From Aequorivita iocasae (GTDB taxonomy: Bacteria; Bacteroidota; Bacteroidia; Flavobacteriales; Flavobacteriaceae): 64,000 nt of DNA. The notes beneath the pieces were generated by a model. It was not told where the DNA came from and did no database searches. It saw nothing but the letters and a program-made list of their open reading frames with translations. Both the position numbers and the translations under genes were made by a program. Every line of letters starts with the position of its first letter. Positions within the stretch are counted from its first letter, which is position 1. Location: NCBI RefSeq assembly GCF_016757735.1, contig NZ_CP068439.1, forward strand, positions 186,001-250,000, read 5' to 3'. This document shows positions 11,989-38,769 of this stretch, piece by piece.

Positions 11989-12360
11989 ATGAAGCACTTG
12001 GCATTGGTTTTTATAGGTGGCGGATTGGGGAGCACACTTCGGTATGCGTTTTCAAAATGGCTGAATAGTTATGAAACAGGAATACCCTATGGAACTTTTG
12101 CAGCAAATATTTTAGGAAGTTTATTAATTGGAATTATTCTCGGCCTTGCATTAAAAAATGAAACCCTTTCCCAAAGCACAGTTTTATTTTTGGCCACGGG
12201 TTTTTGTGGCGGATTTACCACTTTTTCCACATTTGCTTATGAAAACCACGTTTTTTTAAAAAACGGTGATTTTATGTCTTTCGCCCTATATACCCTTGCC
12301 AGCTTGGTGATTGGTTTTGCAATGGTTTTCTTCGGAATGTGGTTGGTGAAGTATTTTTAG
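11989..12360 (+). CDS. crcB: Fluoride ion channel CrcB/Fluc
   Basis: This is a small four-helix membrane protein that exports fluoride as a dual-topology dimer. The family motifs are GGGLGSTLRY at the N-terminus, GTFAANILGS (about 34-43) and GFCGGFTTFSTF (about 71-82), the last holding the Phe-box and Na+ site residues. The length of 123 is normal. Its ATG abuts the stop of the SRPBCC gene, and its end overlaps the convergent DUF1684 gene by four bases. I saw no crcB (fluoride) riboswitch-like leader, and none would be expected within an operon. Confidence 0.95.
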   Translation: MKHLALVFIGGGLGSTLRYAFSKWLNSYETGIPYGTFAANILGSLLIGIILGLALKNETLSQSTVLFLATGFCGGFTTFSTFAYENHVFLKNGDFMSFALYTLASLVIGFAMVFFGMWLVKYF

Positions 12361-13674: not shown

Positions 13675-13703
13675 TTGCCGAAAAATAATTTTTACTACAT
13701 TTG
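13675..13703 (+). promoter_or_regulatory. Promoter of the leader-ORF/MFS transcript
   Basis: A -33 TTG (13675-13677), an 18-base spacer and a perfect -7 box TACATTTG (13696-13703) fit the flavobacterial consensus. Transcription would start near 13709, before the 24-codon ORF at 13724. Confidence 0.7.
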
Positions 13704-13723
13704 AAAATCAATTTCACTAAAAA

Positions 13724-13798
13724 ATGAAAAGTAACACATACACCTGCCGCAGAAACCAGGTCATTTCAAACCAGAAGTGCCGGCGATGTATGTATTGA
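13724..13798 (+). CDS. 24-codon putative leader peptide ORF ahead of the MFS gene
   Basis: An ATG at 13724 opens 24 codons ending in TGA. The peptide has a marked composition: three Cys and four Arg in two clusters, TCRRNQ (residues 7-12) and KCRRC (18-22), the second using CGG and CGA Arg codons. It lies about 15 bases after a predicted transcription start. It is followed, 28 bases after its stop, by a strong hairpin, and then by the MFS exporter ATG. This layout is that of a regulatory leader peptide with attenuation. It could be a chance ORF in a long 5' leader; that it is translated is an inference. Confidence 0.5.
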   Translation: MKSNTYTCRRNQVISNQKCRRCMY

Positions 13799-13826
13799 CT
13801 ATATAACAATAAGTTTATACAATATA

Positions 13827-13856
13827 AAAACGTCCCGGCCAAAACCGGGACGTTTT
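13827..13856 (+). terminator. Strong hairpin between leader ORF and MFS gene (candidate attenuator)
   Basis: A perfect 12-bp stem, AAAACGTCCCGG (13827-13838) and CCGGGACGTTTT (13845-13856), has a 6-base loop. It is GC-rich in an AT-rich region and ends in four T, 22 bases before the MFS ATG. The GCCGG in the leader ORF (13779-13783) is complementary to CCGGC of the 5' arm (13835-13839), allowing a competing pairing. Confidence 0.65.
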
Positions 13857-13878
13857 ACATTTATACCACCAACCAAAG

Positions 13879-15102
13879 ATGAAAAAGATTTACACAAACT
13901 ACCTGGCAAACTTTCGGGGTTTATCCCGAGAAATCTGGCTATTGTCTTTGGTTACCTTCGTCAATAGAGCTGGAGCCATGGTAATTCCCTTTTTATCATT
14001 GTACCTAATAAACGTGGAAGGTTTTGATTTGCCACAAGTGGGGTGGATAATGTCTTGTTTTGGTCTAGGTTCATTGGTGGGTACATATATTGGCGGGAGA
14101 TTAACAGATTCGATAGGTTTTTATAAAGTGATTCTTTCAAGCCTTTTTTTGGGCGGAGTTGGTTTTATATTGCTTCAATATATCAATACATTTTACGGAT
14201 TCTGCATAGGTATATTTTTATTGACTTTGATGGCAGATGCGGGTCGCCCTGCCATTTTTGTAGCTGCTGATGCATACAGCAAACCGGGAAATATTACCCG
14301 AAGTATTGCTTTAATTCGTTTGGCAATAAACTTAGGCTTTTCCATAGGCCCATTGATTGGCGGTTTAATAATCGCGCACATAAATTATACTTCACTTTTT
14401 TGGATTGATGGTTTAACCTGTATGCTCGCTTCCCTTGGTGTATTTCTTCTTTTGAAACCTAAAAAACTAATAAATACCACTGAGGAAAAAACTGTAGTTT
14501 TAAAAGAAGGGCTGCCCCCTTATTTGAACAAGCTTTTCCTTATTTTTTTCGTAATAATGGTAGCTAACAGTCTGGCATTTGTTCAATATTTTTCAGTGAT
14601 GCCTGTTTATTATGAAAAGGTGCATTTCCTTTCCGAAGATGTTATTGGGTGGTTATTATTTATAAATGGCGCCACAATTGTAATTTTTGAAATGCCGCTG
14701 ATTGCTTGGCTTGACCGAAAGAAAATTTCTAAAACCATGGCTACTTTCTGGGGAATTTTCTTTCTGGGGTTGAGTTTCTTGGTATTAAACCTGAGCACGT
14801 GGAGCGGTGTGCTAGTAATAGCTATGTTATTAATGACTTTGGGAGAAATGATTGGGTTTCCATTTTCAAACGCACTGGCATTGGAAATGTCACCAAAAGG
14901 GAGAAAGGGCAGTTATATGGCGCTATACAGTATGAGTTTTAGCGTTGCGCATTTAATTGGCCACAATGGTGGGATGAATTTGGTGAATAGTTTCGGCTAT
15001 TTTAAAACTTGGACAATTTTTTCAATATTCCTGCTTTTTATAGCAGCGCTGACAATCTGGCTATACTTTTTACTTAAAAAATCACAAACAGGAAATATAT
15101 AA
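13879..15102 (+). CDS. MFS transporter, multidrug-type exporter
   Basis: This 407-residue major facilitator has about 12 membrane helices. The loop 2-3 signature of proton-driven MFS is seen as GTYIGGRLTDSIGF (about residues 68-81), preceded by GWIMSCFGLGSLVG in helix 2. The N-terminal NRAGAMVIPFLSLYL and the central cytoplasmic loop (about 193-215) are as in DHA1-type drug exporters. The substrate is not predictable. The unusual feature is its 5' region, with a promoter, a Cys/Arg-rich leader ORF and a strong hairpin, which suggests induced expression by attenuation. Confidence 0.9.
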   Translation: MKKIYTNYLANFRGLSREIWLLSLVTFVNRAGAMVIPFLSLYLINVEGFDLPQVGWIMSCFGLGSLVGTYIGGRLTDSIGFYKVILSSLFLGGVGFILLQYINTFYGFCIGIFLLTLMADAGRPAIFVAADAYSKPGNITRSIALIRLAINLGFSIGPLIGGLIIAHINYTSLFWIDGLTCMLASLGVFLLLKPKKLINTTEEKTVVLKEGLPPYLNKLFLIFFVIMVANSLAFVQYFSVMPVYYEKVHFLSEDVIGWLLFINGATIVIFEMPLIAWLDRKKISKTMATFWGIFFLGLSFLVLNLSTWSGVLVIAMLLMTLGEMIGFPFSNALALEMSPKGRKGSYMALYSMSFSVAHLIGHNGGMNLVNSFGYFKTWTIFSIFLLFIAALTIWLYFLLKKSQTGNI

Positions 15103-15407: not shown

Positions 15408-15851
15408 TTATTTTAAGGGTTTTATGTCATTGTTTTTAACCACATGGGAAAGAACAATTTGTGTTTTAGTTTCACCGTAAACTATCAATTGATCGATAAA
15501 ACTTTCCAAATGTTTTTGATTTTTAAGTATTACCTCCATTACAATGTTTTCGTTTCCAGTAATTCGGTAGCAGTTTAAAACTTCTTCATACGTTTTTACC
15601 ACTTCCAGAAAGGGTTTTAGTTTTCCCATAAATGCCCGCAGTGTAATAATTGCTTTAAATTGATACCCCGCCATAAATGGAGAAATATCTGTGTAATAGC
15701 CATTTATTATGCCTGTATCCTCCATTTTCTTTATCCTTTCAGAAACTGCCGGTGAACTTATGCCCACTTGTCTACCAATTTCAGTGTTGGGTTGGCGGGC
15801 ATTTTTTTGAAGACAATTCAATATTTTCCAATTCAAAGAATCTATACTCAT
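15408..15851 (-). CDS. Lrp/AsnC family transcriptional regulator
   Basis: This is a feast/famine-type DNA-binding protein. The N-terminal winged helix-turn-helix is seen at about residues 4-60 (NTEIGRQVGISSPAVSERIKKME). The C-terminal RAM ligand-binding domain (about 65-140) has the typical YRITGNENIVMEVILK. Ligands of the family are often amino acids. The length of 147 is normal. It is transcribed away from the unknown gene at 15975; the two could share regulatory sequence in the 123-base gap. A link to the nearby MFS gene is possible but unsupported. Confidence 0.92.
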   Translation of the reverse strand: MSIDSLNWKILNCLQKNARQPNTEIGRQVGISSPAVSERIKKMEDTGIINGYYTDISPFMAGYQFKAIITLRAFMGKLKPFLEVVKTYEEVLNCYRITGNENIVMEVILKNQKHLESFIDQLIVYGETKTQIVLSHVVKNNDIKPLK

Positions 15852-38695: not shown

Positions 38696-38769
38696 GGCCT
38701 CGTGGCGCAACTGAATAGCGCATCTGATTACGGCTCAGAAGGTTCCAGGTTTGAATCCTGGCGAGGTCA
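38696..38769 (+). tRNA. tRNA-Arg (anticodon ACG)
   Basis: The cloverleaf can be folded by hand: acceptor GGCCTCG with CGAGGTC (one G-U pair), D stem GCGC/GCGC, anticodon stem TCTGA/TCAGA with loop TTACGGC (anticodon ACG, read as ICG for CGN codons), T stem CCAGG/CCTGG with loop TTTGAAT. The discriminator base is A and CCA is not encoded. Confidence 0.95.

Follow-up and report, generated by a model that had tools for sequence, protein, structure and literature searches.

A leader ORF and a terminator-like hairpin precede an exporter gene

We analysed a window of 64 kb, the whole stretch of DNA considered here, from the 3.35 Mb single-contig genome of Aequorivita iocasae. Inside it a leader lies between a gene of unassigned function and the gene of an MFS transporter (Table 1). 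The original prediction placed a consensus promoter, a 24-codon ORF with two Cys-Arg-Arg clusters and a 12-bp hairpin ahead of this exporter, and we find each of these parts. The promoter is of the Bacteroidetes type, the consensus of which is a TTG followed by TAnnTTTG. Taken alone, TTG-N18-22-TAnnTTTG has 11 matches in the 64 kb of the window, thus the promoter call leans on conservation in relatives, where TAnnTTT[G/A] ends 15-24 nt upstream of the leader ATG in 63 of 68 non-redundant leaders. A scan for sigma-70 promoters returned no site upstream of the leader ORF. It did return a sigma-70-like site at 13795-13823, in the interval between ORF and hairpin, which we rejected as a promoter: such sites turn up there at chance level (10 found, 9.2 expected), and a counterpart exists in 5 of the 68 leaders. 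TAnnTTTG, searched from the leader stop to the exporter, is absent in 67 of the 68 leaders.

Table 1. Features of the exporter leader and its surroundings (window positions)
Feature	Position	Strand	Remarks
Upstream neighbour gene of the leader, function not assigned	ends 13666
Bacteroidetes-type promoter (predicted)	13675..13703	+	TTG 13675-13677 (alternatively 13671), TACATTTG 13696-13703
Leader ORF, 24 codons, MKSNTYTCRRNQVISNQKCRRCMY then stop	13724..13798	+	ORF reading; same length in 21 of 23 Aequorivita loci
Region 1, codons 5-9	13736..13748	+	In the fold, pairs with 13782-13793, excluding the antiterminator
Small mid-ORF hairpin just upstream of region 2	13763..13778	+	Present in both alternative folds
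Region 2, antiterminator 5' strand, final six codons	13779..13797	+	17 pairs with 13820-13839
Region 3, antiterminator 3' strand	13820..13839	+	13827-13838 doubles as terminator 5' arm
Intrinsic-terminator-like hairpin, regions 3 and 4	13827..13856	+	Stem ends TTTT, then ACATTTAT
MFS transporter gene, 407 aa	13879..15102	+	PF07690 at 1.9e-42

The Cys-Arg-Arg clusters of the leader peptide occupy codons 8-10 and 19-21. No Shine-Dalgarno site was seen upstream of the leader ATG, where an A-rich stretch is found instead; initiation without such a site is usual in Bacteroidota (PMC6847099). A short leader ORF, predicted to be translated, lies between promoter and gene, as in an attenuator.

By sequence, the exporter looks like an MFS protein of the drug/H+ antiporter (DHA1-like) type, and its substrate is presumed from this predicted type. 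Weak PDB matches are 3wdo (titled MFS Transporter), which we take to be YajR, together with VMAT2 and NorA. Seven of the ten residues of the stretch GFSIGPLIGG are invariant in 12 aligned homologues, and the stretch agrees with antiporter motif C. The exporter scores far below the cut-offs of all 23 NCBIfam models listed, drug-efflux models included.

The leader RNA is predicted to form alternative, mutually exclusive pairings

In the hairpin ahead of the exporter, 12 pairs, seven of them G-C, close a 6-nt loop, and the folding energy of the segment 13825-13860 is -20.4 kcal/mol. The terminator scan lists this hairpin on the minus strand only, because the T run on the plus strand is broken and weak. 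Judged from its letters alone, a putative intrinsic terminator stands between leader and gene. The original prediction also had the ORF pairing with the 5' arm of the hairpin over five bases. This pairing (13779-13783 with 13835-13839, GCCGG:CCGGC) is real but was understated, as the five pairs are part of a 17-bp interrupted antiterminator in which 13785-13789 pair with 13830-13834 and 13791-13797 with 13820-13826, with bulges between the stretches. This is the fold obtained downstream of an early-held ribosome, and it holds additional weak pairs internally. Because the antiterminator takes the 5' arm of the terminator, the two exclude each other in the modelled folds, as an attenuator would have it.

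In the fold without a ribosome, 13736-13742 pair with 13787-13793 and 13745-13748 with 13782-13785, occupying the antiterminator strand. The minimum-energy fold of the full-length leader consists of helix 1:2 and the terminator. Energies in the window are about -21 kcal/mol for the antiterminator segment (small upstream hairpin included) and about -20 for the terminator. Positions 13857-13880 are unpaired in the window fold, and the exporter ATG is at 13879. In these folding models, helices 1:2, 2:3 and 3:4 are a complete classical attenuator set. Mid-ORF hairpins such as the one at 13763-13778 are echoed in other folded leaders; the hairpin could possibly make RNA polymerase pause, so that the first ribosome does not fall out of step.

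The leader is kept upstream of the exporter in relatives

The exporter was found in 23 of the 28 Aequorivita genomes searched (G000-G027). At 21 of these 23 loci the ORF has exactly 24 codons; L023 has a 21-codon form, and in L021 a full-length match to the RNA model R2 (described below) lies about 280 nt upstream of the exporter. This locus (L021/L218, in G025) carries extra sequence between leader and exporter with a GC-rich inverted repeat. The 16-base ORF end GCGATGTATGTATTGA occurs once each in 19 of the 28 Aequorivita genomes and is absent from the other nine. Over 19 distinct Aequorivita ORFs, pN/pS is 0.60 in frame and 1.50 and 1.10 in the shifted frames, and the best-kept residues in the genus are T5-T7, Q12-S15 and K18-Y24. 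The leader ORF thus looks to be under coding selection.

A scan of named genomes yielded 80 loci, the best 80 of 562 relatives, from Aequorivita, Altibacter, Ulvibacter, Tenacibaculum, Polaribacter, Algibacter, Maribacter, Winogradskyella, Olleya, Bizionia and other genera. Together with 30 other loci these gave 110 loci with 98 distinct upstream regions. We applied a strict test that combines TAnnTTT[G/A] ending 15-24 nt before an ATG, an ORF of 15-36 codons, and a stop codon 12-45 nt upstream of the best terminator-like hairpin. Among the distinct exporter upstream regions, in a set that includes the best 80 of 562 relatives, 85 of 98 pass, so that the ORF, the conservation of which had been proposed as a check on the stalling layout, is kept. 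Within the window 1 of 56 genes passes, and this is the exporter. Flanking ORFs of at least 150 aa in the named loci pass in 5 of 212 cases; these five turned out to be the exporter with a different start, hence none of the 207 others passes. The 13 failures are L021, L027-L030, L049, L069, L072, L075, L082, L087, L096 and L108, of which L069, L072, L075 and L087 fail on promoter spacing only.

The leader set comprises 91 of the 98 regions: L021, L028, L030, L049 and L082 have no hairpin, and L027 and L029 were taken out by hand. Removal of redundancy left 68 leaders. Their peptides are 18 to 30 codons long and diverge widely (for example MRNNVTIYRKQWTSCLKTRSWAYYILW, MTIFNTYKQCKSTVRYGRCRAIYVL and MQNCIVTYTKRQTSWIESWASYIL), with little shared sequence between genera, and start and stop are held at a fairly fixed geometry relative to promoter and hairpin. 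The 3' end of the hairpin is at most 30 nt from the exporter ATG in 42 of the 68 leaders, and 22 nt from it in the window.

Leader pairings are stronger than those of recoded ORFs

We compared the 68 leaders with synonymously recoded versions of themselves. The 2:3 duplex averages -16.2 kcal/mol vs -11.1 after recoding (Wilcoxon p 2.7e-12) and the 1:2 duplex -12.3 vs -8.9 kcal/mol (p 1.7e-11); these p-values are optimistic because the leaders are related, and the recoding test, the region-3 swap and the codon-8 test (below) all treat related leaders as independent. The 2:3 duplex is no better than the recoded mean in four leaders (L025, L050, L108, L110), and the 1:2 duplex in eight (L014, L026, L047, L059, L062, L067, L084, L108). 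When region 3 is exchanged for that of the other arm type, the 2:3 pairing becomes weaker in 25/25 and 40/41 leaders; an exchange within an arm type has this effect in 20/25 and 32/41. These counts cover 66 of the 68 leaders, as L096 and L106 fit neither arm type.

Covariation was examined in alignments. The cross-family alignment A2 holds 63 of the 68 leaders, L025, L042, L061, L096 and L108 having been left out by hand. Because the antiterminator register shifts between clades in A2, we used the clade alignments A3 (34 leaders) and A4 (23 leaders), together 57 of the 68; L026, L071, L079, L095, L106 and L110, which are hard to align, were also left out, and in A3 the row of L024 is 3'-truncated. 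Two-sided covariation of the terminator stem in 34 relatives is reached by 0 of 500 shuffles. The 2:3 helix forms in 71.5% and 80.3% of cells in the two clades, and versions slid out of register in at most 42.3% and 49.3%. Its column covariation is not above that of shuffles within either clade, and two-sided changes are at least as numerous in the slid versions. The 1:2 helix forms in 68.4% and 75.3% of cells, with slid maxima of 54.3% and 59.7%, and its column covariation is slightly above that of shuffles. In these alignments, column covariation is clear for the terminator only and unconvincing for 2:3 and 1:2.

An RNA model recovers the leader next to the exporter

We searched with two RNA models. 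Model R1 was built from 34 leaders, none from Aequorivita, and finds the window leader with E 3.8e-5 (its E-values are rough). It matches 67 of 149 family genomes, and in 60 of these 67 the best match lies 19-266 nt before the exporter on the same strand. In G128 and G161 the exporter starts within 15-25 nt of the match and is cut by the contig end, which brings the adjacent matches to 62 of 67. The remaining five comprise a good match without exporter (G173/L153, E 1.5e-14) and four weak ones elsewhere. Eight additional weaker matches consist of five to the same hairpin on the opposite strand and three elsewhere.

The exporter itself is present in 89 of the 149 family genomes at E <= 1e-60. 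A looser test on the 29 exporter genomes without an adjacent R1 match found promoter, ORF and hairpin in 18, no leader in 10 (including G166) and a hairpin without ORF in 1. By R1 adjacency or the looser test, the leader is thus present in 78 of 89 exporter genomes. Model R2, made from 23 sequences of Aequorivita and near kin, matches 43 of the 149 family genomes. Within the host's own genome its next-best match reaches only E 0.03 vs 1e-21 for the leader, and the hairpin pattern, searched with up to 3 mismatches, is unique to the leader site. Over 148 sampled genomes of the order, R1 gave 7 matches, five in Flavobacteriaceae and two weak ones outside. From the distribution of R1 and R2 matches and their adjacency to the exporter, we conclude that the element is for the most part a feature of Flavobacteriaceae and of one gene.

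Ribosome position and the proposed switch

We simulated each leader with a 30-nt ribosome footprint placed at each codon, the 3' arm of the terminator not yet made. The mean antiterminator probability is 0.82-0.84 with the P site at codons 2-12, 0.78 at codon 13 and 0.65 at codon 14; it is 0.41 at codon 15 and 0.19-0.28 at codons 16-24, with means of 0.35-0.56 at codons 25-27, which exist in a few long leaders. Thus, an early-held ribosome corresponds to ON, and a ribosome near the end mostly to OFF. For a ribosome at codon 8 the natural leaders average 0.84 and their recoded ORFs 0.65, with 64 of the 68 leaders above their recoded versions. At equilibrium without a ribosome the mean is 0.72; because the antiterminator is favoured under that condition, an OFF state without translation needs 1:2 to form first. 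The window leader has an antiterminator probability of 1.0 when no ribosome is present or when one sits at codons 2-14, and of 0.1-0.6 at codons 15-24, so its predicted contrast is modest and below the family mean.

The original prediction described the layout as that of ribosome-stalling attenuation, and the conserved ORF, the exclusive pairings and the terminator support it well. We consider it probable that the leader is a ribosome-mediated transcription attenuator of the exporter, likely induced by a ribosome-stalling drug. This reading builds on what the sequences show: the parts of the leader and their exclusive pairings, both conserved, an ORF under coding selection, and an element found almost solely ahead of this exporter; from these we infer transcription, its coupling to translation, stalling, induction, the inducing drug and the exported substrate. 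Judged from the promoter, transcription would start about 13 nt before the leader ATG. As long as the ORF has no ribosome on it, region 1 would take the nascent region 2 and the terminator would follow, giving OFF. Free translation to the end of the ORF would have ribosomes cover region 2, so that the terminator forms, again giving OFF. A ribosome held at about codons 2-13 would mask region 1 and leave region 2 free to pair with region 3; once 2:3 has formed there would be no terminator, and RNA polymerase would read into the exporter gene, giving ON. Most likely a ribosome-targeting antibiotic, together with the nascent peptide, would hold the ribosome, and the task of the exporter would be to remove this drug or a related toxin. 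As the apparently translation-dependent switch recurs in many relatives, the pump is probably ON when ribosomes slow.

Signals that the leader may sense

Our best guess is that a drug-stalled ribosome would be the most economical signal. A more specific proposal, which we put forward tentatively and which may well need revision, is a dedicated antibiotic-sensing attenuator: an arrest peptide of Flavobacteriaceae, tuned by selection to one class of marine ribosome inhibitor, diversified between genera with a co-evolving RNA switch, and operating with SD-independent ribosomes. Compared with base composition, codons 2-13 are enriched in Thr, Val, Trp, Tyr, Gln and Cys, and depleted of Leu, Pro, His, Ala, Gly, Asp, Glu, Phe and Ser. 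None of the known drug-arrest motifs is universal in the 68 leaders; the macrolide motif +x+ ([RK]x[RK]) occurs in 5 of them. A chloramphenicol-like rule, by which stalling follows Ala, Ser or Thr (PMC12121999), is no more than a lead: of the three residues only Thr is enriched, Ala and Ser being depleted, and the signal of Thr is confounded by region-1 pairing. Asp, Glu, Gly and Ala together are nearly absent from codons 2-13 of the 68 leaders (13 of 816 residues), a scarcity for which base composition does not account.

The leader may instead be a general translation-stress sensor that responds to any early slowing of the ribosome, by several drug classes or by starvation, with no drug-specific arrest peptide. 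That a simulated ribosome anywhere on codons 2-13 suffices, and that the peptide diverges strongly between genera, speak for such a sensor, as does the E. coli uORF toiL, which responds to at least 5 drug classes (PMC12121999). The toiL uORF, upstream of topAI, senses ribosome-targeting antibiotics, as the leader here would, but it regulates a toxin-antitoxin operon at the level of translation and Rho termination (PMC12121999); in Aequorivita the read-out would be a putative intrinsic terminator ahead of an exporter. Against a general sensor stands the non-random use of residues in codons 2-13, which points to the peptide itself being selected; region-1 pairing may account for some of this bias, though. 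On balance this sensor is a possible reading that we rather doubt.

In trp and his attenuators, the position of the ribosome is read out by three mutually exclusive helices, and the leader shares this layout. It might thus sense a shortage of charged tRNA, for Arg or Cys, as the original prediction suggested, or for Thr or Tyr, which are nearly universal in codons 2-13 (64 and 62 of the 68 leaders). Leader-peptide attenuation upstream of amino-acid operons has been reported within the same family, from Flavobacterium psychrophilum (PMC9723704). Cys and Arg, however, occur in these switch-relevant codons in 30 and 43 of the 68 leaders, and the second Cys-Arg-Arg of the window leader, inside the antiterminator strand, is not retained in leaders of most other genera. 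Furthermore, and unlike trp and his leaders, the exporter leaders have no runs of regulatory codons: across the 68 leaders the commonest residue of codons 2-13 occurs twice in 41, three times in 21 and four times, the maximum, in 6. An Arg- or Cys-tRNA sensor is therefore unlikely, and this part of the original prediction is not borne out. The gene downstream does not look like a biosynthesis or transport operon of amino acids but encodes a predicted MFS drug/H+ antiporter-like protein. We regard a trp-type sensor of any of these tRNAs as improbable.

Promoter, short ORF and terminator also make a complete unit, which might be an independent small-RNA or small-protein gene that merely precedes the exporter. 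One genome, G173 (L153), retains a leader-like element without exporter, and a transcript might in theory begin inside the hairpin, from the sigma-70-like site at 13795-13823. Yet this site is at chance level and recurs in only 5 of 68 leaders, the hairpin lies within 30 nt of the exporter ATG in 42 of 68, and TAnnTTTG is missing in between in 67. Peptides of 18 to 30 codons with little common sequence, a hairpin arm that matches the end of its own ORF better than those of others, and partly mismatched helices in L153, like those of a decaying relic, also argue against an independent gene, which we think very unlikely. Least credible of all is an RNA switch that binds a ligand or a protein and has no need of the ORF: the leader RNA does fold stably into alternative structures, but Rfam has no family at gathering score in the leader (top STnc370, 29.8 bits vs 54), the ORF shows coding selection, and the spacing of its start and stop from promoter and hairpin is fairly constant.

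Relation to known systems

The attenuator reading has close counterparts. MefA is an MFS exporter. The streptococcal leaders of mefA/msrD, MefAL and MsrDL, confer macrolide-dependent transcription attenuation (PMC10314930). They resemble the leader described here in combining a short ORF with an intrinsic terminator, and there drug-dependent stalling prevents the terminator; the gene downstream is mefA or the ABC-F gene msrD (PMC10314930), in Aequorivita the MFS exporter. MsrDL (MYLIFM) stalls the ribosome at its stop codon (PMC10314930), whereas the Aequorivita ORF has about 24 codons and the hold is modelled at codons 2-13. Unlike those of MefAL and MsrDL, the ORF codons in Aequorivita carry both the anti-antiterminator and the antiterminator strand, the peptide is unrelated and the phylum is another.

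ErmC and CmlA are preceded by a leader peptide on which drug stalls the ribosome, and a hairpin hides the start site of the resistance gene that follows. Here, too, a leader peptide precedes a putative resistance gene, and stalling would be the equivalent step. Unlike in ErmC and CmlA, the hairpin in Aequorivita is terminator-shaped and ends 22 nt before the ATG, so that it leaves the start unsequestered in the fold.

Ribosome-mediated transcription attenuation is a known type of mechanism, and the exporter leader would be a new example. For the phylum, the literature consulted has leader-peptide attenuation reported for amino-acid operons (PMC9723704) or suggested by sORFs in 5' UTRs of Bacteroides thetaiotaomicron, which were called reminiscent of leader peptides (PMC7366714). 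The main text of a 2010 survey of premature terminators does not contain the words Bacteroidetes or Flavobacteri (PMC2965389). We found no earlier description of the exporter leader in the literature searched, with subscription journals and supplements largely outside its scope. If the attenuator reading is true, a large family has inherited an inducible exporter under the control of ribosome speed, and the leader is a ready-made reporter for the natural or clinical compounds that it senses. The 68 non-redundant natural variants are material for studying the co-evolution of arrest peptide and RNA switch.

Neighbouring genes and a leader without an exporter

A gene of the CrcB family (fluoride channel) lies at 11989-12360; an Rfam scan of the window at gathering thresholds lists no fluoride riboswitch, its one entry being a tRNA at 38696-38769. 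On the opposite strand, a gene for an Lrp/AsnC-family regulator (15408-15851) adjoins the exporter. In L153 (G173), at about 1501-1647, a leader-like MRNNVTIYRMQKTSFKERNWAYYILC followed by a stop codon stands without an exporter behind it. Its terminator and antiterminator look partly mismatched, as they would in a relic left after loss of the exporter. The neighbours of this element resemble the DUF1684 (52% identity), Lrp/AsnC-type (77%) and 131-aa (60%) genes of the window and, because a relative of the Lrp/AsnC gene is thus kept in L153, this regulator could be functionally linked to the exporter.
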